A DNA stretch of 64,000 nucleotides, from positions 4,682,001 through 4,746,000 of the forward strand of contig NZ_LT629791.1 in NCBI RefSeq assembly GCF_900105925.1. Direction: 5' to 3'. A model generated the notes under the pieces. That model ran no database searches, was not told where the DNA came from, and was given only the letters and a program-made list of their open reading frames with translations. This document shows, piece after piece, positions 31,505 to 56,395 of this stretch. The position numbers and the translations under genes were made by a program. Origin of the DNA: Jiangella alkaliphila (GTDB lineage Bacteria > Actinomycetota > Actinomycetes > Jiangellales > Jiangellaceae). Each line of letters opens with the position of its first letter. The stretch's first letter is position 1.

Positions 31505-31522
31505 TTTCGGCCTGGCCCGTTA
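31505..31522. promoter_or_regulatory. Operator site 1 of the CGG-N6-CCG regulon
   Basis: TTTCGGCCTGGCCCGTTA, with core CGGCCTGGCCCG at 31508-31519. It is 20 bp upstream of the propeller A start. It matches TWWCGGNCNNGNCCGWWA like six other sites in the window. Confidence 0.75.
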
Positions 31523-31571
31523 GGCGGTCATCTTGGCAGCGCTGCGCTCGCCAGGGCAAGACCCGGACCAA

Positions 31572-31589
31572 TTTCGGCCTTGCCCGATA
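31572..31589. promoter_or_regulatory. Operator site 2 of the CGG-N6-CCG regulon
   Basis: TTTCGGCCTTGCCCGATA, core at 31575-31586, 60 bp upstream of propeller C. It contains the -35 hexamer of the promoter at 31580-31608. Confidence 0.78.
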
Positions 31590-31608
31590 TCCGAACGGCC
31601 GATAGCCT
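31580..31608 (+). promoter_or_regulatory. Promoter of propeller C
   Basis: -35 TTGCCC (31580-31585), 17-bp spacer, -10 TAGCCT (31603-31608). The -35 lies inside operator site 2, the same geometry as the promoter at 48106-48134. Confidence 0.6.
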
Positions 31609-31649
31609 CCGGGGTCAGATCCCCGTCCCGCCGTCTCGGAGGTCCCCCG

Positions 31650-34043
31650 ATGAGAGCCTTCCTGTCCGGTTCGGCCGTCCTCGTGCTGGCCCTCACCACT
31701 GCGGCGGTGGCGCCCGCGGCGTCGTCGGCCGAGGCCGAGCCCGTCGACGCGCCCGCGCCCGGCGAGATCACCTCGCTCGGCACGCCGCTGCAGGACGTGC
31801 TGCTGATCGGCGGCACCCTCGGCGCCGGCCCGGAGGGCACGCCGGTGCTGTGGAGCGCGTCGTCCGGCGCGCCCGCGCACCTCAACGCCGTCGACCCCGC
31901 GACCGGCGAGGCGGTGGGCCGGTACGACCTGACCGGCGCGGGCGGGTCGTGGGCGGTCGACGCCGGAGCGGACGGCTCGGTGTACGTCGGCACCTACGGC
32001 GCGGCCGGCCTGTACCGGTGGACCGCGGCGGGCGGCGTCGAGGCGCTCGGAAACCCCATCGCCGGCGAGACGTTCGTCTGGGACGTCACGGTCGCCGACG
32101 ACGGCCAGGTGTACGGCGGCACGTCGCCGACCGGCAAGCTGTTCGGCTACGACCCCGTGACCGGGGAGTTCCGCGACTACGGCCGGCTCTCCCCCACGCA
32201 CGCCTACGCGCGCAGCGTCGCCGTGCACGGCGACACGATCTTCGCCGGCACCGAGAACCCGGCCGCCGTCTTCGCCGTCGACCGCGCGACGGGCGCCAGC
32301 ACCGCGCTGCCGGTGCCCGACGGCCTGGACGTCTCGACCGCGTGGGCCTACGACGTCGACGTCGTCGGCGACTACCTCTACGTCCGCTACGGGACCGCGT
32401 CGCCGAGCCCGCTCTACGTCTGGGACATCGCCGCCGGTCAGTGGGTCGACAGCATCGAGACCGCGCACGGGCTGGAGCCGTCGCCGCCGGACGACGAGGG
32501 CCGCGTCTACCTGATCGTGGCCGGCGAGCTGGTCCGCTACGACCCGCGCGACGGCAGCACGGTGAGCACCGGCATGCCGTTCACCGGCCGCGTCGCGAAC
32601 ACCCGCGGCATCGGCTGGGCCGAGCTGGGGCTGCCCGACTACCCCGGCCGCAGCCTCGTCGGGCTGCTCTGGCGCGGGATGATGTTCCGCTACAACCCGA
32701 CCACCGGCGCGCAGTCGTTCGTCCCCACCACCATCGAGGGCGAGCCGATCGACATCACCGCGCTCAGCGAGGGCCCGGATCGGCGCGTCTACGCCGGCGG
32801 GTTCCTCAACGGCGGCTTCGCGGCGGTCGACCACGCCACAGGCGTCCGCGAGGAGTTCCACACGTTCTCGCAGAGCGAGGCGATGACGTCGCACGACGGC
32901 AAGCTGTACATCGGCGCCTACCCGGACGCCCGGGTGTACTCGTACGACCCCGCGCTGCCGTGGCACAGCCCGGAGTACTCGCCGTCGCCCGAGCCCGGCG
33001 CCGCCGAGAACCCGGCACGGCTGTTCGACTTCAAGGCCGACCGGCAGATCCGGCCGCGCGCGCTGGCCTCGGCCGGCGACCACCTGGCCGTTGGCACCAT
33101 GCCCGATCTCGGCGAGCTGGGCGGGGTGTTCGCGCTGTACGACGCGGCCGGCGGCGAGCTGGTGCACGCCGAACGCGACCTGATCGACGACGAGAGCATC
33201 ATCGCGCTCGCCTTCCGCGACGGCGTCGTCTACGGCGCCACCAGCATCTACGGCGGGCAGAGCGCCACGCCGCCGACGCAGCCCGAGGCGACCGTCTTCG
33301 CGTGGTCGGTGGCCGAGCGGCGGCTGCTGTGGGAGCTGAACCCGGCGCAGGGCAAGCCGACGATCGGGGCGCTGACGTTCGACGACACCGGGCGGCTATG
33401 GGGCCTGGCCGGGACCAGCCTGTTCGCCATCGACGTCGAGGCCGCCGAGGTGGTCGAGCGGCTGAGCTTCGGCTCGAGCGGCAGCAGCTCCGGCGACCTC
33501 GTCCTCAACCCCGTCGACGGCCTGCTCTACGCCTCGCCGGCCGGCAACCGGCTGGTCCGGGTCGACCCGTCGACGCTGGTCACCGAGCAGCTGCGGACCG
33601 GGACGACGACGCACCTGGCCGCACACAGCTCCGGCGACGTGTACCTCTCGTCGGGCAACGAGCTGCTCCGGTTCACGCCCACCTGCACGACGACGCTCAC
33701 CGGCACACACCGCGGCGCGCTGACGGCGTCGTCCGGCACGCTCTGCCTCGACGACGCCACCGTGCTCGGGTCGGTGACCGTCACCGGCGGCGCCGGCCTG
33801 CGCATCGACGGCGGCGCGGTGTACGGCTCGGTGACAGCGGACGGTGCGTCACCGGTCGTGATCTCCGGCGCGACCGTGCGGGGCGCGGTGGCGGTGAACA
33901 ACGGCCCGGCGCCGGCCGCGGTGATCTCCGGGTCGACGATTCTCGGGTCGCTGGCCTGCGCGGGCAACGCCGAGGCGCCCACCGACGACGGCGTCCCGAA
34001 CCGGATCCGTGGTGCCCGCTCCGGGCAGTGTGCGACGCTTTAG
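31650..34043 (+). CDS. Secreted beta-propeller protein with C-terminal Cys-containing repeat domain (propeller C)
   Basis: 797 aa from ATG 31650, 7 nt after GGAGG. The signal peptide is about 1-27 (AAVAPAASSAEA). Blades include VYVGTYGAAGLYRWT and VYGGTSPTGKLFGYDPVTG; later blades have the TLYDAAGGE and VYGATSIYGGQ segments shared with the other propellers. The C terminus has the same four-Cys short-repeat domain as propellers A and B (TCTTTLTG, LCLDDA, LACAGN, SGQC), here with GSV units. Divergent from propeller A across 165 bp holding two operators. An SDR gene follows after 32 bp. Confidence 0.85.
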   Translation: MRAFLSGSAVLVLALTTAAVAPAASSAEAEPVDAPAPGEITSLGTPLQDVLLIGGTLGAGPEGTPVLWSASSGAPAHLNAVDPATGEAVGRYDLTGAGGSWAVDAGADGSVYVGTYGAAGLYRWTAAGGVEALGNPIAGETFVWDVTVADDGQVYGGTSPTGKLFGYDPVTGEFRDYGRLSPTHAYARSVAVHGDTIFAGTENPAAVFAVDRATGASTALPVPDGLDVSTAWAYDVDVVGDYLYVRYGTASPSPLYVWDIAAGQWVDSIETAHGLEPSPPDDEGRVYLIVAGELVRYDPRDGSTVSTGMPFTGRVANTRGIGWAELGLPDYPGRSLVGLLWRGMMFRYNPTTGAQSFVPTTIEGEPIDITALSEGPDRRVYAGGFLNGGFAAVDHATGVREEFHTFSQSEAMTSHDGKLYIGAYPDARVYSYDPALPWHSPEYSPSPEPGAAENPARLFDFKADRQIRPRALASAGDHLAVGTMPDLGELGGVFALYDAAGGELVHAERDLIDDESIIALAFRDGVVYGATSIYGGQSATPPTQPEATVFAWSVAERRLLWELNPAQGKPTIGALTFDDTGRLWGLAGTSLFAIDVEAAEVVERLSFGSSGSSSGDLVLNPVDGLLYASPAGNRLVRVDPSTLVTEQLRTGTTTHLAAHSSGDVYLSSGNELLRFTPTCTTTLTGTHRGALTASSGTLCLDDATVLGSVTVTGGAGLRIDGGAVYGSVTADGASPVVISGATVRGAVAVNNGPAPAAVISGSTILGSLACAGNAEAPTDDGVPNRIRGARSGQCATL

Positions 34044-34075
34044 CGCCTGATTCGAGTCGTCGGAGGAGCTGCGGC

Positions 34076-34828
34076 ATGCACGTCCTGGTCATCGGCGGCG
34101 CCGGCATGGTCGGCAGCAACGTGGTCCCGCACCTGGCGCAGCGGCACACCGTCCGGGTGCTGGACCAGCGCCCGCTCGACGTGGGCGGCGTCGAGTCGGT
34201 GACCGGCGACGCCCGCTCCCCCGACGACGTCGCGGCCGCGGTCGAGGGGGTCGACGGCGTGGTGCACATGGCCGCCGCGATCCCCCGTGCCAAGGGCTAC
34301 GACGCGGCCGCGAACCGGCTGGCGTTCGAGGTGAACGTGGCGTCGCTGCACCTCGCGCTGTCGGCGGCGGCGTCGGCCGGAGCACGGTCGTTCGTTCACA
34401 TCAGCACCATGTCGGTGTTCGGCGACTACTCGACCCGGCTGATCGACCCCGCGGCCGCGCCTGACTCCGTCGAGCCGTACGGGCTGACCAAACGGCTCGG
34501 CGAGCAGGTGGTGGCGGCGCTGTCGCCGACGCTGGGGCTGCCGGCCTGCTCGCTGCGGCTGATCTTCCCGACGCCGGACGCCGACTGGCCGCTCTGGCGC
34601 TCGCCCGAGGGGTTCGCGCCGCGGGAGATGCGGATGCGCGACGGCACCAGCACTCAGATCCCGCCGCTGGCCGCCGCCGACCTCGCCGCGGCGATCGACC
34701 GGGCGCTCGCGTGGACCGGGCCGTACCGGCCGTTCACCGTGACCGCCGACGTGGCCGGCGTCTCCGTCCGTCCCGACGACACGCAAGCCGCCTTGGGGTG
34801 GGTGCCGGGCCGAGTGCTGGCACACTGA
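34076..34828 (+). CDS. NAD(P)-dependent epimerase/dehydratase (extended SDR)
   Basis: 250 aa. Rossmann motif GGAGMVGSN at the N terminus, HISTMSVFG and the YGLTKR pair giving the catalytic Tyr and Lys, then a short C-terminal substrate domain. The length resembles uronate- or aldose-dehydrogenase-type SDRs and not nucleotide-sugar epimerases. GGAGGAG lies 8 nt before ATG 34076. It is probably co-transcribed with propeller C, which places it in the regulon. Suggested role: NAD-dependent oxidation of an imported sugar (inference). Confidence 0.85.
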   Translation: MHVLVIGGAGMVGSNVVPHLAQRHTVRVLDQRPLDVGGVESVTGDARSPDDVAAAVEGVDGVVHMAAAIPRAKGYDAAANRLAFEVNVASLHLALSAAASAGARSFVHISTMSVFGDYSTRLIDPAAAPDSVEPYGLTKRLGEQVVAALSPTLGLPACSLRLIFPTPDADWPLWRSPEGFAPREMRMRDGTSTQIPPLAAADLAAAIDRALAWTGPYRPFTVTADVAGVSVRPDDTQAALGWVPGRVLAH

Positions 34829-34832
34829 GGAC

Positions 34833-35618: not shown

Positions 35619-35630
35619 GCGGCTCGCGTG

Positions 35631-35672: not shown

Positions 35673-35694
35673 GACGGCGAGGGCCAGCTCACCG

Positions 35695-36417
35695 TCAGAG
35701 GCGGAATACCTCGGCGGCGTTGCGCCACATCACCAGCTCCTCCTCCGCGGCACTGAGCCGCGCCGCCCGGACGGCGCCCAGCGTGACCGCCGGGTGGATG
35801 AGCGTCGCGTCGCTGCCGAACATCAGCCGCTCCGGCCCGATGCGGTCGAGCACCCAGCGGATCCGGCCCGGCGCGGGCGTCGACCAGCAGGGCTCGAACC
35901 AGAGCCGGTCGGTCCGCTCCGCCGCCGACGGCGCCAGCCGCCAGGACGGCCCGCCGAGGTGAGCGGCGACGACGCGGGCGCCGTCGACCGAGGCGACGAC
36001 GTCGGCCAGGCCGACGAGCTCCTCGCCCCACGTGTGCGCCAGGACGGGCAGGTCGTGCGCGGCCAGCAGCCGCAGAGCGTCGGCCATCGCCGGTGAGCCG
36101 CCGGGCGAGCCCGCATAGTGGGTGTGGATCTTCGCGCCCACGAACAGACCGGTCGGCAGCAGCGACTCCAGCTGCGCCGCCGCCAGGTCCAGCTCGCGCG
36201 GGTCGACGACCAGCAGGCCGCGCAGCCGCGGGTGCGCCTCCAGGACGGGCACCAGCGCCGGGTTGCCGGTCAGCGGGTCGTAGACCACCGCCTCGACCGA
36301 CGACACCAGCTGCACGTCGATGCCGCACTCGTCCATCACGCGCAGGTTCGCCGCCGGGTCGGCGACGTCGGTGTGGAAGAACCACGGGCCCCAGTGGCCG
36401 TGCACGTCGACGATCAC
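35695..36417 (-). CDS. Amidohydrolase-2 family metal-dependent hydrolase (intact member, module 1)
   Basis: 240 aa. TIM-barrel hydrolase with N-terminal metal motif VDVHGHWGP (HxH), HTWGEEL and AAHLGG in the middle, and GSDA with the catalytic Asp near the C terminus. Relatives include sugar-lactone hydrolases and decarboxylases (COG2159/COG3618). Start GTG 36417 overlaps the stop of the next upstream gene (GTGA). It is the last gene of a DegT - degenerate amidohydrolase - intact amidohydrolase unit, driven from the operator at 38395. Confidence 0.88.
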   Translation of the reverse strand: MIVDVHGHWGPWFFHTDVADPAANLRVMDECGIDVQLVSSVEAVVYDPLTGNPALVPVLEAHPRLRGLLVVDPRELDLAAAQLESLLPTGLFVGAKIHTHYAGSPGGSPAMADALRLLAAHDLPVLAHTWGEELVGLADVVASVDGARVVAAHLGGPSWRLAPSAAERTDRLWFEPCWSTPAPGRIRWVLDRIGPERLMFGSDATLIHPAVTLGAVRAARLSAAEEELVMWRNAAEVFRL

Positions 36418-37130
36418 GCCGTCACCCCCGGATCCCCCAGCAACCGGCGCAGGTTCCCGCCGGTCACCAGCTCCCGCTCCGACGACGACAGCCCCGAGAC
36501 CGTCAGCCGGTCCACGACGGCGGCCGCCTCGAACCAGCCGGGCCGGCTGCCGAACACCAGCCGCTCCACACCGGCCTCGGCGGCCAGCCGCTCCCAGCCG
36601 TCGACGTCGCCGAGCAGCCGGGTCGACGCGTGGAAGCCGGGCTCGTCGCGGGCCAGCAGCACGAAGTCGCCTAGGTGGTAGAAGTGCGCGTCGACGAAGA
36701 CGGCCGACGCGCCCAGGCCGGCCAGCGCGGGCCCGAACACTCGAACGTCGCCCTCGACCAGCAGCACCAGACCCGCCCCGACCGCGGCCCGCGCCACCGC
36801 CAGCAGCCCGGGCGCCGACACTGGGACGCCCTGCCGGTCCGGCGCCAGCCGCACCGCCCGCACCCCGAGCGACGCCACCCGCGAGACCTCCGCCAGCGCG
36901 GTCAGTGGGTCGCGCAGGTCGACCCCGGCGGCCGCGTGCCAGCCCTGCTCCGCGGCCACCGCACGGGCCTCGTCGTTGCCGCTCGGCGCGTCGAACAGCA
37001 GCGCCCGCAGCGACGTCACCAGCCCGCCGCCGATGCCCAGCGGCTCCAGCGCCGCCGCCAGCTCCGGGCCGGGCAGCCGCACGCCGGTCTCGACGTCGCG
37101 GCCGGCCAGCAGGTCGGCGTCGAGGATCAC
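36414..37130 (-). CDS. Amidohydrolase-like protein lacking metal ligands (module 1)
   Basis: 238 aa from GTG 37130, overlapping the DegT stop (GTGA). It aligns in layout with the amidohydrolase that follows, but the N-terminal HxH position reads LDADLLAGR, and the C-terminal GSDA position reads FGSRPGW, so both metal-binding ends are lost. A His-rich DAHFYHLGD stretch remains in the middle. Probably a pseudoenzyme, perhaps a structural or regulatory partner of the intact protein with which it is translationally coupled. The equivalent in module 2 is at 44161-44880. Confidence 0.8.
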   Translation of the reverse strand: MILDADLLAGRDVETGVRLPGPELAAALEPLGIGGGLVTSLRALLFDAPSGNDEARAVAAEQGWHAAAGVDLRDPLTALAEVSRVASLGVRAVRLAPDRQGVPVSAPGLLAVARAAVGAGLVLLVEGDVRVFGPALAGLGASAVFVDAHFYHLGDFVLLARDEPGFHASTRLLGDVDGWERLAAEAGVERLVFGSRPGWFEAAAVVDRLTVSGLSSSERELVTGGNLRRLLGDPGVTA

Positions 37131-38359
37131 GACGCCACCAGCGCGGTGTGCACCTTCGTGACCGCGGCGACGATGTCGTCGACGTCGGCGTCGGTGAAGT
37201 TCTCGTTCCACGGCACCACCACGAGCCGCCGGTAGACGAGGTCCTCGGCGACCGGGCAGAGCCCGTCCGGGTAGTCGCGCCCGGCCAGCGGATAGCCGGA
37301 CGCGCCGTACGTGAGCGGCTTGCGCAGCACCGGCTCGGCGTAGAGCGGCCGCGCCAGGTAGCCCGACAGAGAAAGGACGCCCTCGGCCGTCAGCGCCTCC
37401 GCGTACCGCACCAGCCCGCCGTGGTCCAGGCCGTCGACCAGCAGCGGGAGGTACCAGTAGACGTGGTCGCCGTCGTCGGGCGGCAGCACCAGCCCCGGCA
37501 GCCCGGCCACGCGGGCGGCGAACTCCGCCGCGCTCGCCCGCCGCCGCGAGACGACGCCGGGCAGCTTGCGCAGCTGCTCGCGGGCGACGGCGCCGACCAG
37601 CTCGGTCATCCGGTAGTTCAGCGCGTAGGACAGGTAGGCGCGCTCGCCGGTCTCGCGCGGCCAGCCCTTGTCGGCGAACCGGCGCAGCCGCAGCGCCAGC
37701 TCGGGGTCGTCGGTGGTGACCAGGCCGCCGTCGCCGGTGGTGATGTGCTTGTACTGCTGCAGGCTGAAGCAGCCCAGCTGCCCGACGGTGCCCACGAGCG
37801 GCCCGCCGTGGCGGGTCGGCGCGAGGTAGGCCTGGGCGCAGTCCTCGATCAGCATGATGCCGGCGCGGTCGGTGAGCTCGCGCAGCCGCGCGACCGGCGC
37901 CGGCTTGCCGAACAGGTGGACGGCGACGACGGCGCGGGTGCGCGGGCCGATCAGCGCGGCGACGGCGTCAGGGTCGAGGTTGCCGGTGACCGGGTCGACG
38001 TCGGCGAAGACGGGAACGGCGTTCTGCGCGATGATCGGCGTGACCGAGCCCATGTCGGAGATCGGCGGGACGATGATCTCGTCGCCCGGCTCCGGGTCGA
38101 CGGCGGCGACCGCCAGGTGGATGGCCGCGGTGCCGCTGCTGCAGGCCACCGCGTAGCGGGTGCCGATGAGCGCCGCGAACTCCTCGGTCAGGGCGTTCAC
38201 CTCGGTGCCCCACACGCTGGACAGCATGCCGCTGCGCAGGACCCGCAGGACCGCGGCCTCCTCCTCGGGGCCGATGGTCCGCCCGCTCGGCTCCATGGGC
38301 GACGGCAACGGCCGCCCGGCCCGCACCGGCGTTCCACCGTCGATGGCCAGCGTCCGCAC
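37127..38359 (-). CDS. DegT/DnrJ/EryC1/StrS-family PLP enzyme (module 1)
   Basis: 410 aa. Fold-type I sugar-aminotransferase family: CSSGTAAIHLA (phosphate loop), IEDCAQA with the PLP-pyridine Asp (173), and Schiff-base Lys 204 in QQYKHITTGDGG. GTG 38359 is chosen because its (V)RTLAIDGGTP aligns with the MTTLAIDGGDP start of the paralogue at 42204-43388. An ATG at 38392 in frame lies only 2 bp from the operator and inside a possible -10 element. Family members transaminate keto-sugars, and some act as dehydratases. In a catabolic setting it may remove an amino or hydroxyl group (inference). Confidence 0.86.
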   Translation of the reverse strand: MRTLAIDGGTPVRAGRPLPSPMEPSGRTIGPEEEAAVLRVLRSGMLSSVWGTEVNALTEEFAALIGTRYAVACSSGTAAIHLAVAAVDPEPGDEIIVPPISDMGSVTPIIAQNAVPVFADVDPVTGNLDPDAVAALIGPRTRAVVAVHLFGKPAPVARLRELTDRAGIMLIEDCAQAYLAPTRHGGPLVGTVGQLGCFSLQQYKHITTGDGGLVTTDDPELALRLRRFADKGWPRETGERAYLSYALNYRMTELVGAVAREQLRKLPGVVSRRRASAAEFAARVAGLPGLVLPPDDGDHVYWYLPLLVDGLDHGGLVRYAEALTAEGVLSLSGYLARPLYAEPVLRKPLTYGASGYPLAGRDYPDGLCPVAEDLVYRRLVVVPWNENFTDADVDDIVAAVTKVHTALVAS

Positions 38360-38394
38360 TGCCTCGCCTGCTTCCTGTCGAGTGACACTCATCG

Positions 38395-38412
38395 TATCGG
38401 CCTAGCCCGAAA
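38395..38412. promoter_or_regulatory. Operator site 3 of the CGG-N6-CCG regulon
   Basis: TATCGGCCTAGCCCGAAA, core at 38398-38409, in the 81-bp gap between the divergent DegT gene and the regulator at 38441. It lies 28 bp before the regulator ATG and 35 bp before the DegT GTG, so one site can serve both and would give autoregulation. Confidence 0.75.
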
Positions 38413-38440: not shown

Positions 38441-39667
38441 ATGGACACCTCCATCGGCGTGGTCGGCCCGCACGACCTGGTCGACAGCGTCGCGACGGTC
38501 TGCGAAGAACAGGCCGGGGTGCGGGTGCACCGGTTCGACTACGACCACGAGACCCAGGCCAGCGCCATGGTCACGACGCACGCGTCGGGGGTCGACGCCT
38601 GGTTGTTCACCGGCATCGTTCCGTACACCCTCGCACACGACGCGCTGACCCGCCCGGCCGCGTTCGTCGACTACAGCGGATCGACGCTGCTCGAAGCCCT
38701 GGTACGGCTGCTGCGCGACGGCCACGACGTCACCCGGCTGTCGGTCGACACCCTCGACCCCGCGCAGGTGCACGGCACCCTGCGCGACGCCGGCGTGCCG
38801 GTCTCCGACGTGCGCACGCTGCCGTACCGGCCGGGCGCCACGGCCGCCGACTTCGCCGCCTTCCACCGCCGCCACGCCACCCGTCACGACGGCACCGTCG
38901 CCGTCACGTGCCTGGCGTCGGTGCACGACGAGCTCAGCGGCCACCTGCCGGTGTTCCGGCTGGCGCCGTCCGGGCAGTCGGTGCGCGCGGCGCTGCGCCA
39001 GCTGCTGCTGTCGGCGACCAGCCAGATCCAGGAGGACGCGCAGGTCGCGCTCGGGCTGGTCGAGGTCTCCCCCGCCACCGAGCTCGACGACCTCGCCCGC
39101 GAGGTGGGGCTGCTCGGCGGCTCGCTGTCGCAGTACTCCGAGACGCTGTCGCTGATCGTGACCACCCGGGGGCCGCTGCACGACGCCTCGCGCGGGTTCA
39201 CCGCGCTGCCGTTCCTGCACCGCCTCGGGCAGCGGCACGACGTCGTGCGCGTCGGCTTCGGCATCGGGCACAGCGGCGCCGAGGCCGAGCGGCTGGCCCG
39301 CCGGGCGCTGGCCCGGGCCCGCAGCCACGGCGACGTCGCCGCCGTCGTGTCGTCGCGCAACGACGTCGACATCCTGCTCGAGACCGTCGCGCCGGCCGAG
39401 GCGCCCAAAGCGGCGCAGAGCCGGGCGGTCGTCGCCAGCCGGGTCGGGCTGTCCGTCGGCACGCTCGACCGCCTCCGCGACATCACCGCCGCCACCGACG
39501 ACCGCCCGCTCACCACCCGCGACGTCGCCGACGGGCTCGGCGTGCAGCTGCGGACGGCACGCCGCATCCTGCAGCGGCTGGAGCTCGCGGGGTGTGCGGA
39601 ACGGTCCGGCAGCCTGGAGTCCGGGACGATCGGGCGGCCGCTGACGCTGTACCGCATCACGCTGTGA
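38441..39667 (+). CDS. Transcriptional regulator with degenerate GGDEF-like region and C-terminal winged helix
   Basis: 408 aa from ATG 38441. The N-terminal part (about 1-150) begins SIGVVGPHDLVDSVATV and looks like a ligand-binding alpha/beta fold. The middle part (about 190-320) ends VGFGIGHSGAEAERLARRAL, resembling GGDEF-like regions that have lost the active motif, as in PucR/CdaR-type regulators. The C terminus (about 340-400) is a winged helix-turn-helix (TTRDVADGLGVQLRTARRIL). It is divergent from a regulon operon, with an operator in the shared promoter, and is the only DNA-binding protein in the 26-58 kb set. It is therefore the best candidate for the factor binding the CGG-N6-CCG sites. 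Confidence 0.8.
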   Translation: MDTSIGVVGPHDLVDSVATVCEEQAGVRVHRFDYDHETQASAMVTTHASGVDAWLFTGIVPYTLAHDALTRPAAFVDYSGSTLLEALVRLLRDGHDVTRLSVDTLDPAQVHGTLRDAGVPVSDVRTLPYRPGATAADFAAFHRRHATRHDGTVAVTCLASVHDELSGHLPVFRLAPSGQSVRAALRQLLLSATSQIQEDAQVALGLVEVSPATELDDLAREVGLLGGSLSQYSETLSLIVTTRGPLHDASRGFTALPFLHRLGQRHDVVRVGFGIGHSGAEAERLARRALARARSHGDVAAVVSSRNDVDILLETVAPAEAPKAAQSRAVVASRVGLSVGTLDRLRDITAATDDRPLTTRDVADGLGVQLRTARRILQRLELAGCAERSGSLESGTIGRPLTLYRITL

Positions 39668-39684: not shown

Positions 39685-40719
39685 TCACGGGCCGAGCCAG
39701 CGGTCCAGACGCTCGGCGATGAACTCGTCGTCGCGCAGCTGGGGGTACGCGGCCCAGATGCGGTCGATCTCGTTCAGCTGACCCGGCGAGAGCACCTCGG
39801 CCTCGTCCAGGCACCACAGGCCGGCCAGCAGGCCCTGCCGGCGCAGCACCTCGTGGATGCCCGGCACACAGCCGTGGAACCCGTGCGCGGCGTCGAAGAT
39901 GGCCGCGTTGGCGTCGGTGAGGACGGGGTTCAGCGCGAGCAGCTCGCGCAGCGCGGCATCGTCGCCGGCCCGTGCGCGGCCCGCGGCGGCGAGGACGTCC
40001 ACCGCGCCGCGCACCCACACCGCCCACTGCCCGAGCAGGCCGCCGACCACCTCGATCCGCTGCCCGTCCAGCTCGTACGTCGTGAGCAGGTCCATGACGA
40101 TGTGGTCGTCGTTGCCGGTGTACAGCGCGATGTCGCCGGCGCGGCCGGACAGCGCCAGGCCGTGGACGACCTCGAGCGTGGCGTACCGGTCGAACGGCGC
40201 GACCTTGACGCCGGTCACCGCGGGCTGCTCGGCCAGCCGCCGCCAGAAGTCGCGGCCGAGGACGCGGCCGCCGACGGCCGGCTGCAGGTAGAAGCCGATG
40301 ACCGGGATGACCTCGCCGACGGCGCGGGCGCGGGCGAGCAGGTCGTCCTCGGAGGCGTCGCCGGTGCCGTACGGCGTCAGCAGCGCCAGGTCGTAGCCCA
40401 GGTCGCGGGCCAGCTCGGCCTCGGCGACGGCCTGCTCCGTCGGCCCGACGATGCCGGTGACCAGAACGGGCGCCTGCTCGGGGTACTCGGCGGCGGTCTC
40501 GGCGGCCAGTTCCAGCACCGGGGCGAGCAGGCCGCGGCCGGGCTCGTGCACGGCGAACTGGGTGGTGTGGACGGCGACCGCCAGGCCGGTGGCGCCGGCC
40601 TCGACGTAGTACCGCGAGAGCGCCCGCTGCCGCCGTTCGTCCAGCTTGCGGTCGTCGTCCAGGGCGAGCGGATGCGCGGGGATCACGCCACCGGCGCGGA
40701 ACCGGTCCAGGGCGGTCAT
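39685..40719 (-). CDS. Dihydrodipicolinate synthase-family aldolase/dehydratase (paralogue 2)
   Basis: 344 aa from ATG 40719, which overlaps the preceding stop by one base (TGATG). DapA-like barrel with Schiff-base Lys 172 in TGVKVAPFD and Tyr 144 in GFYLQPAVGG. The long C-terminal extension (about 290-344) is unlike DapA. Likely to cleave or dehydrate a 2-keto-3-deoxy acid or similar (inference). It forms a two-gene operon with the SDR gene upstream, under the operator at 41762. Confidence 0.87.
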   Translation of the reverse strand: MTALDRFRAGGVIPAHPLALDDDRKLDERRQRALSRYYVEAGATGLAVAVHTTQFAVHEPGRGLLAPVLELAAETAAEYPEQAPVLVTGIVGPTEQAVAEAELARDLGYDLALLTPYGTGDASEDDLLARARAVGEVIPVIGFYLQPAVGGRVLGRDFWRRLAEQPAVTGVKVAPFDRYATLEVVHGLALSGRAGDIALYTGNDDHIVMDLLTTYELDGQRIEVVGGLLGQWAVWVRGAVDVLAAAGRARAGDDAALRELLALNPVLTDANAAIFDAAHGFHGCVPGIHEVLRRQGLLAGLWCLDEAEVLSPGQLNEIDRIWAAYPQLRDDEFIAERLDRWLGP

Positions 40720-41761: not shown

Positions 41762-41779
41762 TTACGGTCCAGACCGTAA
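41762..41779. promoter_or_regulatory. Operator site 4 of the CGG-N6-CCG regulon
   Basis: TTACGGTCCAGACCGTAA, a perfect palindrome with a 2-bp centre, core at 41765-41776, 26 bp upstream of the SDR start. It covers the -10 element of the promoter 41773-41802. Confidence 0.8.
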
Positions 41780-42147: not shown

Positions 42148-42208
42148 GTTGATCATGGAGCAAGGAGGCTCCCGGCGCGGTTTTGAGCCGACCTTCTCCA
42201 TGATCAAC
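42148..42208. repeat. Dispersed palindromic repeat, family B, copy 2
   Basis: Arms GTTGATCATGGAG (42148-42160) and CTCCATGATCAAC (42196-42208). Read on the minus strand, the right part and loop (GAAGGTCGGCTCAAAACCGC) are nearly identical to copy 1 at 19734-19814, so it is an inverted, partly diverged copy. It supplies the stop codon of the DegT-family gene at 42204. Confidence 0.8.
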
Positions 42209-46663: not shown

Positions 46664-46705
46664 ACGGTTCTCCTCGCCCGCCATGGGGCGTCAGCGGTGG
46701 CGGCG

Positions 46706-47997: not shown

Positions 47998-48015
47998 TAC
48001 CGGCCTGGGCCGAAA
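47998..48015. promoter_or_regulatory. Operator site 5 of the CGG-N6-CCG regulon
   Basis: TACCGGCCTGGGCCGAAA, core at 48001-48012, 29 bp upstream of the binding-protein start. Its right end overlaps the -10 of the promoter at 48013-48041. Confidence 0.75.
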
Positions 48016-48097: not shown

Positions 48098-48115
48098 TAA
48101 CGGCCTTGACCGAAT
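48098..48115. promoter_or_regulatory. Operator site 6 of the CGG-N6-CCG regulon
   Basis: TAACGGCCTTGACCGAAT, core at 48101-48112, 47 bp before the propeller D start. It contains the -35 of the promoter 48106-48134. Confidence 0.78.
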
Positions 48116-48162: not shown

Positions 48163-50469
48163 ATGCTCCGCCGCTCCCCGATCGCCGCAGTCCTGCTCGT
48201 GCTCGCCCTGGTCCTCTCGCCCGCAGCGGCCACGGCCGAGCCGGCGACGCCGGCCCCCGCTGCCGCGGATGCGGCCTGGACCGCGGTGCCGCTCGGGCCG
48301 GCCAGCGTCGCCACGCCTACCGGCTCGGGCGGATTCATCGGCGACATGCTGTGGTTCTCGACCCGGCAGGCCAACCCGCCGGCCCTCATCGGTCTCGATC
48401 CCGCCAGCGGCGAGGCGGTCAGCCAGATCCCGCTGCCGGACAGCCTGGGCGCCTGGGTGAGCGCGGTCTCCGGAACCGACGTCTACGTCGGCACCTACAC
48501 GCCCGCCAAGCTCTACCGCGTCGACACCGTCAGCGGCGAGGTCGAGGAGATCCTCACGGCCGGAGGTTCCGGCGCGGTCGTCTACGCGCTGACGGTGGCG
48601 CCGGACGGGGTCGTCTACGCCGGGACGTACGAGTCGTCCGGCGGGCGGATCCTCGCCTACGACCCGGCCACCGGAGCGGTCACCGACCTGGGCGTCACCG
48701 TGCCGGGCCAGGACTACGTGCGCGCGCTGGTGGCCGACGAACGCTACCTCTACGCCGGCATCGGCTCGGCCGCGTCGCTGGTGCGCATCGACCGCGCCAC
48801 GCACGAGAGCATCGACCTCACTCCCCCGGACCTGGCCGGCGCCACCTTCGTCTCGTCGCTGGCGCTGCACGAGGGCGTGCTGCTGGGCGGCGTCTCGCCG
48901 CGCGGCCAGCTGCTCGTCGTCGAGACCGCCGACCCGTCCCGGTACGAGCTGGTCCAGGCGCCGGCCGAGACGTTCGTCGTCGCCGTGACCGGCGGCGAGC
49001 CGGGCCGGGCCTACTTCGCCGCCCGGCCGTCGGGGACGCTGTACGGCTACGATCTGTGGTCCGGCACCGCGGAGGCACTCGCCGTACCGGCGCCGGAGAA
49101 GGCGGCCAGCGGCCTCACCTTCAACGACGGCCAGGTCTGGGGCCTGGTCGACGGCCTCGCCTACGCCTACGACCCGGCCGGCGGCGGCGTCACCGGACTG
49201 CCGCTGGACGCGGCCGGCGTCACCCCCAGCCCGGAAGGGCCGATGGCCCTCGCCGCCGACAGCGAGCACGTGTACGTGTCCGGTTCCGGCGGCGTCCAGA
49301 TCCACGACATCGCCCGCGGCGGCAGCAGCCGGGTCTTCGTCCCGGGCGAGGCGAAGTCGCTGTGGCCCACCGGCGACACCGTCTACCTGTCGGTCTACAC
49401 CAGGGCGCTGATCTACGAGCTGCCCTCCACCGCCGGTCCGGTGCGGCAGCTCGCGGAGATCGGCCACGAGCAGACCCGGCCGCGCGACTCGTTCCTCGAC
49501 GACGGCACCGGACGGCTCTACGTCGGCACCGAGCCCGACTACGGCCGTTACGGCGGTGCGCTGGCGGTCTACGACACGGCCACCGGCGAGCTGGACGTCT
49601 ACCGCGACATCGTCGAGGACCAGACGATCTCCGCCGTCGCGGCCGAGGGCGACACCGTCTACATCGGCAGCGACATCAAGACCGGCCTCGGCACCTCACC
49701 GGTCGCGACCCGCGCCGAGGTGGCCGCCGTCGACGCGGGCACCGGCGCGGTGCGCTGGTCGATCCCGGCACCGGCCGGGGCCACCGTCGTCGGCGACCTC
49801 CGGCTGATCGGCGCCGAGCTGGTCGGCCTGACGTCCACCGGGCTGCTGTTCGGGCTCGACCCGGCCACCGGGACGCTGCGCTGGCAGCACGCACTGGGCG
49901 TGAACGCGTCGATCCTGACGCCGTCGGCCACCGGGGTCTACACGACGGACGGGAAGTCCATCCTCCGGCTGACCTGGCCCGAGCCGGGCGCGCCGGTCGT
50001 CTCGACCGTGTACACGGGTCTGGCCGGCGAGTGGTATGGCCCGGCCTCGGTCACCGCCACGCCGGACGGGTCGGCGCTGTTCGCCGTCCAGGGCCGGACC
50101 CTCGTGCGCCTGGACGTCCCCGGCGAGCTCTTCGCAGACGTGTCGGCGGCGTCCTCGTCGGCCTGGGTGGGCGACCCGGACCGGTCCCGGGTGTGGCGCG
50201 CGTCGGTCACCGTCACCGTCCTCGGCGCGGACGGGTCGCCGCTGGCCGGCGCCCGGGTCACCGCCGGCTGGCGGGCCGGCGACCGCCCGGCGGCCACGAC
50301 CTCCTGCGTGACCGGCGGGGACGGCAGCTGCGTGCTGCGCCGCACCGTGGCCGACGCCGCGGCCGTCACCGCCGACGTCACCGCCGTCTCGCACCCGTCC
50401 CTGCCGCGGGGCGCCGTCGAACTGTCCAAGACCGTCACCGTCACCGCTCCGGAACGAGGTTCCCGATGA
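48163..50469 (+). CDS. Secreted beta-propeller protein with C-terminal Ig-like domain (propeller D)
   Basis: 768 aa. Sec signal peptide (about 1-27, LSPAAATAEP). Blades include VYVGTYTPAKLYRVD and GGRILAYDPATGAVTDLG, and the shared late segments RLYVGTEPDYGRYGGALAVYD and VEDQTISAV. The C-terminal ~100 residues form an Ig-like/Cna-B-type domain (VTVLGADGSPLAGARVTAGW) with one Cys pair, instead of the Cys-containing repeats of propellers A-C. It is divergent from the sugar-importer operon across 194 bp containing two operators and overlaps the next gene by ATGA. Confidence 0.86.
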   Translation: MLRRSPIAAVLLVLALVLSPAAATAEPATPAPAAADAAWTAVPLGPASVATPTGSGGFIGDMLWFSTRQANPPALIGLDPASGEAVSQIPLPDSLGAWVSAVSGTDVYVGTYTPAKLYRVDTVSGEVEEILTAGGSGAVVYALTVAPDGVVYAGTYESSGGRILAYDPATGAVTDLGVTVPGQDYVRALVADERYLYAGIGSAASLVRIDRATHESIDLTPPDLAGATFVSSLALHEGVLLGGVSPRGQLLVVETADPSRYELVQAPAETFVVAVTGGEPGRAYFAARPSGTLYGYDLWSGTAEALAVPAPEKAASGLTFNDGQVWGLVDGLAYAYDPAGGGVTGLPLDAAGVTPSPEGPMALAADSEHVYVSGSGGVQIHDIARGGSSRVFVPGEAKSLWPTGDTVYLSVYTRALIYELPSTAGPVRQLAEIGHEQTRPRDSFLDDGTGRLYVGTEPDYGRYGGALAVYDTATGELDVYRDIVEDQTISAVAAEGDTVYIGSDIKTGLGTSPVATRAEVAAVDAGTGAVRWSIPAPAGATVVGDLRLIGAELVGLTSTGLLFGLDPATGTLRWQHALGVNASILTPSATGVYTTDGKSILRLTWPEPGAPVVSTVYTGLAGEWYGPASVTATPDGSALFAVQGRTLVRLDVPGELFADVSAASSSAWVGDPDRSRVWRASVTVTVLGADGSPLAGARVTAGWRAGDRPAATTSCVTGGDGSCVLRRTVADAAAVTADVTAVSHPSLPRGAVELSKTVTVTAPERGSR

Positions 50470-52412
50470 CCGAACTCAGCCGCCGTACCTTCCTCTCCGC
50501 CGTCGCCGCGGCCGGTGCGCTGCCCGCGGTGCCCGGCATCGCCGGGGTCGCCGCCGCAGCCGGCTCGCCGGCACCGGAGCTGTTCGGACCCGCGGCGGTG
50601 ACGGCGGCCATCGTGGGCATGGCGGTCGAGGGCGACACCGGCTACCTCGTGACCCGCGGCCAGACCCCGCCCAAGGTCGTCACCGTCGACCTGGCCGCCC
50701 GGACCGTGACGCGCATCGACCGCCTCGACCGCGGTGACGGCGGCTGGGCGTGCACGATCTCGGGCGGTCAGGTGTACGCGGGCACCTACCCGACCCCCGA
50801 CCTGTACCGCTACGACCCCGTCAGCGGCGAGGTCGAGCTGCTCGGCACGATCGGGCCGTCCGGCGGCTTCGTCTGGTGCCTGACGACGGCGCCCGACGGC
50901 ACCGTGTACGCCGGCACGTCGCCGCGCTGCGAGCTGTGGGAGTACCGGCCGGACACCGGCGTGCTGCGCAAGGTCGGCCGGGTCGCCACCGACACCCAGT
51001 TCGCCCGCGTCGTCGCCGCCGACGACACGACGGTGTACGTGGGCACGACGCCGCTGCGGCACGTCATCGCCGTCGACCGCGCCACCGGGGCGATGCGCGA
51101 CATCTACCCGGCGGACCTGGAGCGCACCGGGTCGGTCGACGCGATCATCGCCACCGGCGACCGCGTGCTCGTCTCGGCCGGCGGCCAGGTGCTGGACCTC
51201 GCGCCCGACGGCTCCGACTACACGGTCGTCGCGCCGCCCGAGCCCTCGACCATGATCGACGGCCTGACGCTGACGCCGTCGGGCGAGCTGCTGGGCGTCG
51301 CGCGCCGCACCGGCGCGCTGTTCCGGCGGGTGGGCGACGCGCTCGAGCCCGCTGGTGTCGCCAACGCCGGCGACGAGACCCGCGGCCTCTGGCTGCGCGA
51401 CGAGTCGGTGCTGCTGGGCGCCGGCGGCAGCGGGGTGCTGTGGTTCCACGACCTCGCCACCGGCGACACCGAGACGTTCGACCTCACCGAGACCGACGTG
51501 GCCGGGCCCGACCTCGTCCAGTACCTCAGCTACGACCGCAGCGCCGTGTACGTCGGCGGACACTTCTACGTCACCGTGCACCGGCCGTGGGCCGGCGTCG
51601 AGCCCCGCCGGATCCGGGTGAACGGCGAGATCAAGGCGATGCTGCCGCACGAGGGCCGAGTGCTGGGCGCCATCTACCCGAGCGGCGAGCTGATCAGCAT
51701 CGACCCGGCGACCGACACCGTCACGTCGCTGGGCATGCTCGGGAACGACCAGCAGCGTCCGTGGGAGCTGGCGCTCGATACCGAGCGCGGCCTGCTCCTC
51801 GTCGCGTCGGCGCCGGGGACCGGCCGGCTGAACGGCGCGCTGACCGTGCTGGACCTCGCGACCGGCGCGATGGACGCCTACGTCGGCCTGCTGCAGGACC
51901 AGAGCGTCATGTCCGTCGCTCTGCACGACGGCGTCGCGTACCTGGCCGGCGACACCTGGGGCGGCGGCGGCGCCACACCGACCCAGCCGGCCGCGCAGGT
52001 GGCCGCGTTCGACCTGGCGACCCGGACGGTGCTGTGGCGGACCGAGCCGATCGCCGGGCAGGCCAGCCTGCAGCACGTCGAGGTCCACGACGGATATCTC
52101 TACGGCGTGTACAAGCGTCTGAGCGGCACCTGGTTCGCGATGGACCTCGCCACCCGCACCGTCGTCAGGCAGGGCAGGATCAGCGGCTACGGCGAGATCG
52201 TCGTGCACAACGACCAGGTCTTCGCGGCGACCAACTTCGGCGACTACCTCTACCGGCTGCGCCCCGACCACGACGCGGAGCAGCTGGCCGGGCCGCTCGT
52301 CGCCAGCTGGTTCACCGTTCCTCAGCTGGAGTTCGAGCGCGGCTGGACCGCTTGGGGGGTTGCGGGCCGCGAGCTGGCCCGCTTCGACCTGCATCCGCGG
52401 CATCGGCGCTGA
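50466..52412 (+). CDS. Tat-exported beta-propeller protein (propeller E)
   Basis: 648 aa from ATG 50466, overlapping the propeller D stop (ATGA). A Tat signal SRRTFLSAVAAAGALPAV is followed by propeller blades such as VYAGTYPTPDLYRYDPVSG and no accessory C-terminal domain. Tat export implies folding, and perhaps cofactor or metal loading, before secretion, unlike the four Sec-exported relatives. The last 101 bp overlap the convergent Erm gene. Confidence 0.86.
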   Translation: MTELSRRTFLSAVAAAGALPAVPGIAGVAAAAGSPAPELFGPAAVTAAIVGMAVEGDTGYLVTRGQTPPKVVTVDLAARTVTRIDRLDRGDGGWACTISGGQVYAGTYPTPDLYRYDPVSGEVELLGTIGPSGGFVWCLTTAPDGTVYAGTSPRCELWEYRPDTGVLRKVGRVATDTQFARVVAADDTTVYVGTTPLRHVIAVDRATGAMRDIYPADLERTGSVDAIIATGDRVLVSAGGQVLDLAPDGSDYTVVAPPEPSTMIDGLTLTPSGELLGVARRTGALFRRVGDALEPAGVANAGDETRGLWLRDESVLLGAGGSGVLWFHDLATGDTETFDLTETDVAGPDLVQYLSYDRSAVYVGGHFYVTVHRPWAGVEPRRIRVNGEIKAMLPHEGRVLGAIYPSGELISIDPATDTVTSLGMLGNDQQRPWELALDTERGLLLVASAPGTGRLNGALTVLDLATGAMDAYVGLLQDQSVMSVALHDGVAYLAGDTWGGGGATPTQPAAQVAAFDLATRTVLWRTEPIAGQASLQHVEVHDGYLYGVYKRLSGTWFAMDLATRTVVRQGRISGYGEIVVHNDQVFAATNFGDYLYRLRPDHDAEQLAGPLVASWFTVPQLEFERGWTAWGVAGRELARFDLHPRHRR

Positions 52413-53365: not shown

Positions 53366-53402
53366 ACCGCTTCAGATCGCGGTCAGCCGGCGGTGCGTGA
53401 AG

Positions 53403-53459: not shown

Positions 53460-53487
53460 TCCCACGCCGCCAGCATAACGGGTCGGG

Positions 53488-54042: not shown

Positions 54043-54126
54043 GGTGCCCCCTTCCGGGCTCGGTCGCCACTCAGCCTTCATGGCGACACCACGTCCCGCA
54101 ATCGGCAATCGCCGGATTGTGGACAA

Positions 54127-55767
54127 CTAGCCGACCAGCAGTTCGTTGTGGACAACCTCGGCGCGTTCGCCCTGCCAGCGGCGCCGCGCCCAGCGGTCAT
54201 GGGTCACGACGACGACCGCAAGGCCGGCGCCGTCGACCGCCGCCTCCAGCTCTTCCACCAGGCCGAGCGACAGGTGGTTCGTCGGCTCGTCGAGGAGCAG
54301 CACCTGGGGCCGGGTCACCAGCAGCCGGGCCAGCGCGAGCCGGCGCTGCTGCCCGACCGACAGCGCGCCGACCGGCATGCCCAGCGCCGGTCCGGGCAGC
54401 AGGCCGAGGCCGGCCAGCTCGGCCTGGTACTCGGGGGCCGGGCCGGGGCGACCGGCGGCGAACGCCTGCACCGCCGTCAGCGACAGGTCGGGGAAGCTGC
54501 CGGTCTGCGGCAGCCAGCCGATCCGCAGCCGCCGCGACCGCAGCACCTCGCCGGTCTGCGGCTCCAGCGCCCCGGCCAGCACCGCCAGCAGCGACGACTT
54601 GCCCGAGCCGTTGCGGCCGGTGATCATCAGCCGGGTGTCGCGGGTGACGTCCAGCGCGCGGGCGGCGATGCGGCCCGGGACCTTCACGTCGCGGACGGCG
54701 ATCAGCACGCCGTCGGGCACGCCGGCGCCCAGCGCGGCGTCGAACCGGAGCAGCCGCGGCGGCTTCGGGATGCGCAGCTCCTCCAGCCGGCGCAGCCGCA
54801 CCTCGGCCTCGCGGACCCGCCGCGACACGGCCGCGTCGACCTTCTGGCTGGCGAAATGCGCGGCGAACTTGTCGTTGTCGCGCCGGCCGCGGCCGTCGTG
54901 ACCGACCCGGCGGGCGTCCTGCTTGACGACCGCGCGCGCCTCGTCGACGTCGTCGGACCAGGTGGCGTACGCCTGCTCCCACCGCAACCGGGCGGCCGCC
55001 TTGCCGGCCAGGTAGTCGGTGTAGGCGCCGGTGTAGCGGGCCGGGCCGATGTGCGGGGTGCCGTCGCGCTCCACCGTCAGGACGGGGTCGAGGTCGAGGA
55101 TCGACGTGGCCACGCCGTCGAGGAACGCGCGGTCGTGCGACACGGTGACGACGGCGCCGCGGTACTCCTTCAGCGCGTCCTCGAGGAAGGCGATGGCGTC
55201 GTCGTCGAGGTGGTTGGTCGGCTCGTCCAGCAGCAGCACGTCCGGCGCGCGGACCAGTGCCAGCGCCAGCGCCAGCCGGGACCGCTGGCCGCCCGACAGC
55301 GTGTCGACCGTCCGGTCCCCCGCGATCTCGGCCAGGCCCAGCCCGGCCAGCGCGCGGGCGGCCCGGGCGTCGGCGGCCCAGCCGTCGCGGTGCTCGAACT
55401 CGGCCAGCAGGTCGCCGTACTCGTCCAGCACCGACTCGTCGCCGTCGGCGAGCCGCGCTTCGGCGGCGCGCATGCGCTGCTCGAGGACGCGGAACTCCGC
55501 CAGCGCGGCGTCGACGGCGCCGTCGACGGTGCTGCCGGCCGGCAGGTCGGGCTCCTGGGTGAGGTAGCCGAGCGTGCCGTGCCGCTCGACGGTGCCGGAG
55601 TCGGGCGCCTCGACCCCGGCCGAGAGCCGGAGCAGGGTCGACTTCCCGGCGCCGTTCTCGCCCACGATGCCGAGCCGCTCCCCCGCGGCGGCGTCATAGC
55701 TGACGCCGTCGAGGACCCGGCGGCCGGCGTAGGCGATGCAGAGAGCGCGAACGGAGAGGAGAGACAC
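54127..55767 (-). CDS. ABC-F family ATPase, ribosome-protection type
   Basis: 546 aa. Two nucleotide-binding domains in one chain and no membrane segments. NBD1: GENGAGKST, LSGGQRSRLALA, VLLLDEPTNHLDDD. NBD2: GRNGSGKSS, LSVGQQRRLALA, VLLLDEPTNHLS. The linker between them (about 230-320) is long and charged, as in the antibiotic-resistance ABC-F proteins that displace drugs from the ribosomal exit tunnel. Start GTG 55767 has GAGG 7 nt upstream. It is separated from the next divergent gene by a 149-bp leader that could be regulatory. Proximity to erm suggests a joint MLS-resistance function. Confidence 0.9.
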   Translation of the reverse strand: MSLLSVRALCIAYAGRRVLDGVSYDAAAGERLGIVGENGAGKSTLLRLSAGVEAPDSGTVERHGTLGYLTQEPDLPAGSTVDGAVDAALAEFRVLEQRMRAAEARLADGDESVLDEYGDLLAEFEHRDGWAADARAARALAGLGLAEIAGDRTVDTLSGGQRSRLALALALVRAPDVLLLDEPTNHLDDDAIAFLEDALKEYRGAVVTVSHDRAFLDGVATSILDLDPVLTVERDGTPHIGPARYTGAYTDYLAGKAAARLRWEQAYATWSDDVDEARAVVKQDARRVGHDGRGRRDNDKFAAHFASQKVDAAVSRRVREAEVRLRRLEELRIPKPPRLLRFDAALGAGVPDGVLIAVRDVKVPGRIAARALDVTRDTRLMITGRNGSGKSSLLAVLAGALEPQTGEVLRSRRLRIGWLPQTGSFPDLSLTAVQAFAAGRPGPAPEYQAELAGLGLLPGPALGMPVGALSVGQQRRLALARLLVTRPQVLLLDEPTNHLSLGLVEELEAAVDGAGLAVVVVTHDRWARRRWQGERAEVVHNELLVG

Positions 55768-55916
55768 GTGACGACCTCGACGAGGTTGCTGGGAGCCCGC
55801 CGGGTGGACGCACCTCGGGCACGGGCGGAGTCACGCGTTCAGATCACATCACTGTCAAGGATGCCACGTGGGTACTGTCCCGGGCAAAGCGATTTCCCGG
55901 ACCGTGAGGAGCTGCT

Positions 55917-56342
55917 GTGCAGAAGATCGCCAACATCGTCGTCGACTGCGCCGACCCGCGACTGCTCGCCCACTTCTGGTCCGACGTCCTGGGCTACCCG
56001 CGCCTGGAGTACCCCGAGGAGATGCGCCGCGAGCTGCTGGCGTCCGGCCTCACCGAGGACGACCTGCTCGCCCGCGTCGTCGCCGAGGACCCCACCGGCG
56101 AGGGACCGCGGTTCTACTTCCAGCGGGTGCCCGAGGCCAAGCTGGGCAAGAACCGCGTCCACGTCGACGTCCGGTCGGTGCCGGGCCGGCGCGCCGAACC
56201 GCACGAGGTCGACGCCGAGGTCGAGCGCATCACCGCCCTCGGCGCGACCGTCCTGCGCAAGGCCGACGACGCGTGGGGCCCGTACACCGAGTACTTCTAC
56301 GTGCTCGCCGACCCCGAGGGCAACGAGTTCTGCGTGTGCTGA
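55917..56342 (+). CDS. VOC-superfamily protein (glyoxalase-like domain)
   Basis: 141 aa from GTG 55917, 5 nt after GAGGAG. It carries IANIVVDCADPRLLAHFWSDVLG at the N terminus and VLADPEGNEFCVC at the C terminus, the two halves of a Glyoxalase_6-type fold common in actinobacteria, with no assigned substrate. It lies between the ABC-F leader and the operator of propeller F and shows no link to the regulon. Confidence 0.87.
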   Translation: MQKIANIVVDCADPRLLAHFWSDVLGYPRLEYPEEMRRELLASGLTEDDLLARVVAEDPTGEGPRFYFQRVPEAKLGKNRVHVDVRSVPGRRAEPHEVDAEVERITALGATVLRKADDAWGPYTEYFYVLADPEGNEFCVC

Positions 56343-56365
56343 CGCCGGCGCGGCATCTCGCGCTC

Positions 56366-56395
56366 TCGACATTACGGTCAGGCCCGTAATACCAT
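56366..56395 (+). promoter_or_regulatory. Leaderless promoter of propeller F
   Basis: -35 TCGACA (56366-56371), 18-bp spacer, -10 TACCAT (56390-56395). Transcription would start at about 56402, the A of the ATG, giving a leaderless mRNA. The spacer is exactly filled by operator site 7. Confidence 0.6.
56372..56389. promoter_or_regulatory. Operator site 7 of the CGG-N6-CCG regulon
   Basis: TTACGGTCAGGCCCGTAA, core at 56375-56386, occupying the space between -35 and -10 of the propeller F promoter. Confidence 0.78.

Follow-up and report, generated by a model that had tools for sequence, protein, structure and literature searches.

What, if anything, brings the genes for exported propellers, a sugar importer and sugar-processing enzymes in a 64,000-nt stretch of the Jiangella alkaliphila genome (contig NZ_LT629791.1, positions 4,682,001 to 4,746,000; this whole stretch is referred to as the window) under common control? 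An earlier reading of the DNA, the original prediction, proposed that seven copies of an 18-bp palindrome, TWWCGG-N6-CCGWWA, join them into one system with a regulator encoded at 38441. The analysis described here supports a local regulon in this soil actinobacterium, in which a shared operator-like site precedes several units, including the regulator gene, and this arrangement is conserved in distant relatives. The palindromes are probably the operators of the 38441 one-component regulator, which would control the propeller, importer and enzyme units as a repressor (rough probability 0.82). A regulator and a nutrient pathway, neither of which had been characterized before, are now directly testable.

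Palindromic sites in the window and in the home genome

Sites were judged against the pattern TWWCGG-N6-CCGWWA, and genes were taken from our own caller, trained on the window. All seven palindromes are present where the original prediction had placed them (scores are those of the matrix described below):

31505..31522, palindrome TTTCGGCCTGGCCCGTTA, upstream of the propeller unit 29127-31466 on the minus strand, matrix score 20.4
31572..31589, palindrome TTTCGGCCTTGCCCGATA, upstream of the gene at 31650, matrix score 20.7
38395..38412, palindrome TATCGGCCTAGCCCGAAA, between the divergent regulator gene (plus strand) and the aminotransferase gene DegT1 (minus strand), matrix score 20.8
41762..41779, palindrome TTACGGTCCAGACCGTAA, upstream of the Epim2-DapA2 unit (an epimerase and a DapA-like enzyme), matrix score 31.1
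47998..48015, palindrome TACCGGCCTGGGCCGAAA with one mismatch, upstream of the operon of the solute-binding protein (SBP) and permeases, matrix score 18.8
48098..48115, palindrome TAACGGCCTTGACCGAAT with one mismatch, upstream of the propellers at 48163 and 50466, matrix score 21.8
56372..56389, palindrome TTACGGTCAGGCCCGTAA, 12 bp upstream of the propeller at 56402, matrix score 25.7

Five of them (31505, 31572, 38395, 41762 and 56372) match the pattern exactly, 47998 and 48098 carry one flank mismatch each, and the core CGGNCNNGNCCG is found in 7/7, which bears out the proposed shared core. As had also been claimed, all seven lie between genes, and they stand ahead of unit starts: 31505 and 31572 are situated between divergent propeller units, and 47998 and 48098 separate the importer operon from two propellers. 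The pattern itself is real and was amended in two respects. Refinement position by position from 251 distinct sites yielded the consensus TTWCGGTCYRGACCGWAA; moreover, the 12-bp core alone is common in the window (42 copies versus 21.3 expected) and consequently not diagnostic, the signal being made by the AT flanks. When the window was scored with a matrix derived from 95 distinct sites of 71 loci, none of them from Jiangellaceae, the seven sites formed its top seven (18.8-31.1), the eighth reached only 8.8, and the maximum in 30 Markov-1 windows of 64 kb was 13.9. A MocA-like gene at 23205 was found to be without a site.

The scan of the whole 7,716,500-bp Jiangella contig holding the window, which had been proposed as a refutation test, left the prediction standing, as perfect sites are confined to this locus. 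The pattern TWWCGGNCNNGNCCGWWA has five perfect matches in the home genome, 5/5 in the window, and nine with one mismatch, two of them in the window, versus two matches of the reversed control pattern at up to one mismatch. None of the seven one-mismatch sites outside the window (0/7) precedes a propeller, and five of these score 6.9-14.0. The relaxed pattern TTNCGGNCNNGNCCGNAA has five perfect matches, namely two in the window, two at 2.079 Mb and one at 7,081,287, the last preceding a Tat-like exported protein. At 2.079-2.083 Mb (L187:5394-8630), the palindromes TTGCGGCCGTGACCGCAA and TTCCGGTCTAGACCGGAA lie 65 bp apart upstream of an unlinked exported 329-aa protein and a propeller, so that the strongest unlinked site pair of the home genome precedes another propeller operon. 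Because sites recur before unlinked propeller and exported genes, the regulon probably extends beyond the locus.

Two further places were recorded. In the home genome, the palindrome TTACGGTCCGAGCCGTTA at 6876288 (L014:1501; one core mismatch, score 21.2) is followed about 50 bp further on by the gene of a Tat-like exported protein of 256 aa. A same-strand run at L186:5495-13535 encodes an M14 peptidase, a 644-aa protein without a Pfam match, a propeller and a PTE-family hydrolase, with a weak site candidate at L186:10566.

Conservation of the sites in related loci

Related loci were found with an alignment of 19 of the 120 listed regulator homologues, and the 80 named loci analyzed (1,585,424 bp) are the best 80 of 105 relatives. 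They stem from Jiangella, Haloactinopolyspora, Micromonospora and relatives, Nonomuraea and relatives, Actinophytocola, Pseudonocardia, Kribbella and others. These loci contain 289 sites (119 perfect and 170 with one mismatch) versus a single match of the reversed pattern, and at least one site is present in 78/80. The sites are intergenic in 275/289 cases, compared with 1,693 of 16,000 random positions, and the centers of 265 of the 275 intergenic sites lie -40 to 200 bp from a start. The contribution of the flanks is again visible, as cores with five or six of the six AT flank bases are intergenic in 219/234 instances and those with zero to four in 61/702. In Jiangella asiatica, three sites (L069:5355, 5429 and 9956) share the same G-to-C change at site position 11, and two other sites of that locus keep the G.

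The gene families of the window occur in differing orders and strands among loci. Near the regulator in the 71 loci outside Jiangellaceae, DegT1 was found in 58, DapA2 in 54, Epim2 and the permease Perm1 in 51 each, the amidohydrolase AmidA in 50, SBP in 49, the propellers Prop5 and Prop4 in 26 and 24, and DegT2 in 15. A MocA-type oxidoreductase-like protein (by eye), which does not belong to the window families, is present in 47/71. For a unit test in these 71 loci, a matrix trained on Jiangellaceae only (23 distinct sites) was applied, a site was required within about 220 bp of the start, units were defined by a 100-bp rule, and units starting within 260 bp of a locus end were excluded. A site precedes 245/330 regulon-family units versus 14/301 other units. 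By first gene, the fractions are 49/50 for DegT1, 31/32 for SBP, 25/26 for Epim2, 23/26 for the amidohydrolase-like AmidB, 41/48 for propellers and 57/67 for the regulator (REG), and 0/17 for Perm2, 0/11 for DapA2 and 0/5 for Perm1, all three being normally internal genes. Rearranged loci of other families thus carry sites ahead of the same genes, the outcome on which the original prediction had staked itself, and propellers for export, the importer and enzymes of otherwise generic type are tied into one putative pathway across several actinobacterial families.

Co-occurrence of site and regulator

As the 80 loci were picked by the regulator, its presence there is by construction, and the link between regulator and site rests on a comparison of 393 genomes of the class, in which a regulator was counted at 45% identity or more over its length. 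Such a regulator occurs in 17/393 genomes, and 15/17 have perfect sites (55 in total) versus no reversed controls. Among the other 376 genomes, 28 contain perfect sites, 30 in total, which does not exceed the reversed control (about 40, counted by hand). Of the two regulator genomes lacking a perfect site, G209 has one-mismatch sites in its locus; G359 is taken up below.

Six genomes of the same family (G019, G102, G174, G192, G200 and G217) have propeller matches and no regulator at or above the 45% cut-off. A perfect site is missing from three of them; each of the other three has a single one, more than 190 kb away from every listed propeller match. In 11 stretches from these genomes (L193-L199 and L201-L204), the best site scores 14 and no other reaches 13. 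Site presence therefore tracks the regulator orthologue and not the propellers. In five of the 11 stretches, a regulator of 28-30% identity is located beside relatives of propellers, DegT, SBP, DapA2 or Epim2, and the operator in the six genomes may have diverged. Tandem regulator paralogues (about 43-50%) occur in G154 and G209 (L158, L159, L188 and L189); the divergent propellers next to them have the variant site TAACGGTCGCTACCGTAA, in this or the reverse orientation (score 20).

Further perfect sites in relatives were examined in 11 cases, taken from among the places listed. Seven precede propellers: five in as many other Jiangella genomes, where a guaA-like gene is adjacent, one that is the propeller-5 site of the main locus in G226, and one in G090. 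Two (L150:3001 and L151:3001), in two Jiangella genomes, precede by about 40 bp the gene of a PhoD-type phosphatase exported via Tat, assigned by Pfam in one of them, and this phosphatase is a possible extra regulon member. The operator can hence be used to find unlinked members, as for the propellers beside the guaA-like gene. The claim that the seven sites tie the locus into one system is upheld as far as a regulon is concerned; they do not delimit the whole of it, as the 2.079-Mb operon and the guaA-adjacent propellers indicate.

Promoter placement and proposed mechanism

Among 350 distinct upstream regions (351 minus one duplicate), a sigma70-like promoter of the form TTGNNN-16..19-TANNNT was recognizable in 186. 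The site overlaps the -10/+1 region, the placement of a repressor-type operator over the core promoter or start, in 174 of the 186, the -35 in seven and other positions in five; with shuffled flanks, the -10/+1 class averages 5.65. In the commonest geometry, a TTG-type box is situated 17-18 bp ahead of a -10 that either adjoins the left half-site or is contained in it. The -10 TACGGT is supplied by the motif itself; the -35 and the spacing are not built in. In the window, site 31572 contains the -35-like TTGCCC with TAGCCT 17 bp further on; site 41762 encloses the -10-like TACGGT with TTGACA 18 bp upstream (minus strand); site 47998 is overlapped by TTGACG-17-TAGTTT (minus strand); and site 48098 contains TTGACC with TACGCT 17 bp further on.

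The overlap with -10/+1 suggests repression, with blocking of RNA polymerase as the simplest reading. From the computed sites, their enrichment, conservation, co-occurrence with the regulator and promoter placement, we infer binding, a direction of control and a ligand, which would act together as follows. A regulator dimer would sit across the -10/+1 (at some promoters the -35) of housekeeping-type promoters, namely those of the regulator's own gene and of the units for exported propellers, sugar importer and sugar-processing enzymes, and would block RNA polymerase. With the matching nutrient present, an imported breakdown product would bind the PrpR_N-like sensor, and the ligand-bound regulator would free all units together.

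Weighing of alternative explanations

Several observations weigh against this reading. No site was found in 2/80 loci, and 85/330 regulon-family units lack one. Among 40 of these 85 that were inspected, many are normally internal Perm2 and DapA2 genes cut off by the 100-bp rule, and two REG units and several propellers are true misses; overall, REG as first gene misses a site in 10/67. Only 186/350 upstream regions exhibit a recognizable promoter, many of the 350 being orthologues and not independent, and in the window a promoter accompanies only 4/12 site-directions, 31572 (+), 41762 (-), 47998 (-) and 48098 (+). The presence of the regulator in all 80 loci follows from their choice. G359 has a 47% regulator with other neighbors and no site, two of the 11 further perfect sites (L154 and L155) show no evident link, and the same is true of 4616417, where a one-mismatch site with a score of 21.5 is separated by 110 bp from an aminotransferase-like gene downstream. 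Finally, an unlinked propeller run at 5.966 Mb has only a weak candidate site, scoring 12.9.

The same regulon and regulator could operate by activation, for example by distortion of the promoter spacer, with the ligand switching genes on via the bound protein. MerR-type activators re-shape the promoter spacer in this way, some sites do occupy part of the -35/-10 spacer region, and Prop2, Prop5, REG and DegT1 in the window lack a TTGNNN-TANNNT promoter; activation is nevertheless unlikely, given the predominant -10/+1 overlap and promoters whose mostly 17-18-bp spacers and TTG-type -35 boxes need no help. It is distinctly improbable that the sites serve a different transcription factor whose gene lies elsewhere, the 38441 gene being simply another of its targets. 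A nearby site is expected of any target, and loci picked by the regulator cannot separate the two readings; the 393 genomes, in which site presence follows the regulator orthologue, speak for the 38441 protein, as do the six propeller genomes without it, which have no perfect site near a listed propeller match and, apart from the one of 14, none scoring 13 or more in their 11 stretches. In addition, no DNA-binding protein was recognized among the 14 largest further protein clusters of the 71 loci (by eye, first 200 residues).

Two readings dispense with a DNA-binding protein. Inverted repeats can fold as RNA and the window has two pairs of copies, so that attenuator hairpins, terminators or interspersed palindromic repeats come to mind; this is highly improbable in view of the lack of an Rfam match at gathering scores, the position of the sites before starts and mostly on -10/+1 where a promoter is seen, whereby many would be only partly transcribed, and the restriction of the five perfect copies in 7.7 Mb to one locus, which does not fit a dispersed repeat. 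A chance origin from CGG...CCG palindromes common in GC-rich DNA, with the 42 core copies in its favor, has a virtually negligible probability: it is refuted by the genome scan, with 5/5 perfect sites in the locus, and by conservation, with 289 sites against one control match, 275 of them intergenic, and recovery of the seven sites by the outside-family matrix.

The regulator and its relatives

38441..39667, plus strand, regulator of 408 aa with three domains in the predicted model

The structure model comprises a PrpR_N-like domain (1-198), a cyclase/GGDEF-like domain (200-315) and a winged helix (327-408). The PrpR_N fold at the N-terminus was found in the model; its profile PF06506 is not among the protein's 11 Pfam matches (E 0.1) and is also absent from the 25 of 39 Pfam families shown for 19 homologues. 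All helix-turn-helix (HTH) matches fall at 346-390 and belong to generic Pfam HTH models, and the protein had no match when ten window proteins were searched against NCBIfam. At least 374 relatives were found in one search, the closest named ones, from Jiangella, being up to 96% identical. The site before the regulator gene is conserved in other loci, and co-occurrence points to the 38441 protein as the putative binder of the palindromes. A candidate operator is hence assigned to a regulator family covered only by generic Pfam HTH models and without an NCBIfam match.

PrpR, the propionate catabolism regulator (N-terminal domain 2pju), and 2q5c are among the closest known systems. In contrast to PrpR, the 38441 regulator has a winged helix, and no sigma54-activator domain was found among its 11 Pfam matches, the 408 residues being filled by the three predicted domains. 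CdaR/PucR-type regulators also carry a GGDEF-like domain, and differ from the 38441 regulator in the N-terminal domain and HTH class. Unlike the LacI family, the regulator has a C-terminal winged helix and other sensor domains; a LacI-type N-terminal HTH was not found, residues 1-198 forming the sensor fold in the model.

A local catabolic regulon of a one-component regulator is a known kind of system, familiar from comparative genomics. Operator placement is part of its likeness to LacI-family regulons. Local catabolic regulons of LacI-family regulators, likewise inferred by comparative genomics, also have one regulator, palindromic operators and genes for sugar transport and catabolism (PMC4052901). 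No description of the regulator, the operator or the gene set was found among the papers listed in the literature searched, nor the 12- or 18-mer among those checked for it, most subscription journals being outside the coverage, and as far as these searches go, the regulator architecture, the operator and the propeller-centered gene set are new.

Gene content and the putative pathway

Genes were annotated by Pfam, with NCBIfam for the ten proteins mentioned; the names guaA-like, aminotransferase-like, Tat-like and MocA-like were given by eye, without a Pfam call.

25452..26348, minus strand, DapA1, DapA-like enzyme (Pfam DHDPS)
26437..29130, minus strand, exported propeller 1, 897 aa (Reg_prop, DUF6923)
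29127..31466, minus strand, exported propeller 2, 779 aa (DUF6923, Reg_prop)
31650..34043, plus strand, Hyp797, exported propeller-like protein, 797 aa (no Pfam match; 37-39% identity to two neighboring propellers)
34076..34828, plus strand, Epim1, NAD-dependent epimerase (Pfam Epimerase)
35695..36417, minus strand, AmidA, amidohydrolase (Pfam Amidohydro_2)
36414..37130, minus strand, AmidB, amidohydrolase-like (Amidohydro_2 at 25.2 bits, just under the curated cut-off of 26.4)
37127..38359, minus strand, DegT1, DegT-family aminotransferase (GTG start at 38359 favored)
39685..40719, minus strand, DapA2, DapA-like enzyme (Pfam DHDPS)
40719..41735, minus strand, Epim2, NAD-dependent epimerase (Pfam Epimerase)
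42204..43388, minus strand, DegT2, DegT-family aminotransferase
43397-44155, minus strand, AmidC (Pfam Amidohydro_2)
44161-44874, minus strand, AmidD (Pfam Amidohydro_2)
44883..46684, minus strand, two ABC permeases (Pfam BPD_transp_1)
46706..47953, minus strand, SBP, sugar-type solute-binding protein (Pfam SBP_bac_1; relatives in PDB)
48163..50469, plus strand, exported propeller 3, 768 aa (PQQ_2, DUF6923)
50466..52412, plus strand, exported propeller 4, 648 aa, with Tat signal (DUF6923, TAT_signal)
56402..58357, plus strand, exported propeller 5, 651 aa, with Tat signal (predicted tandem beta-propellers)

An alternative DegT1 start, ATG at 38392, lies 2 bp from site 38395; the GTG at 38359 is better, because a Jiangella orthologue (L072) lacks this ATG. 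Propeller 5 was modeled as two beta-propellers (pLDDT 90.5) with generic fold matches only, and was aligned with 27 selected proteins, genes cut by locus ends being excluded. The DegT proteins are similar to AHBA synthase and to aminotransferases acting on sugars and cyclitols, and the SBP resembles sugar-binding proteins. The pathway would take up and degrade a glycan or sugar-acid conjugate, the most likely substrate; the question of the substrate is now testable. More tentatively, and with considerable doubt, the regulator, with its PrpR_N-like, cyclase-like and winged-helix domains, might represent an actinobacterial class of its own, and the exported tandem propellers under its control might be glycan-cleaving enzymes of a new family instead of passive binders. 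Their product, an amino- or keto-sugar acid, would then be imported, processed by DegT, the paired amidohydrolases, the DapA-like aldolase and the epimerase, and sensed by the regulator.

A thyX-like gene (Pfam Thy1, 34833-35618) starts 4 bp after Epim1, which itself begins 32 bp after Hyp797. The original prediction had seen no site before housekeeping genes, and none stands directly before one in the window; the statement needs qualification, as thyX (34833) belongs to the same-strand run behind site 31572 and may receive read-through from that site. A tRNA-Arg (CCT) reported by ARAGORN at 11123-11200 on the minus strand lies inside the called gene 11039-11788 and is possibly spurious.

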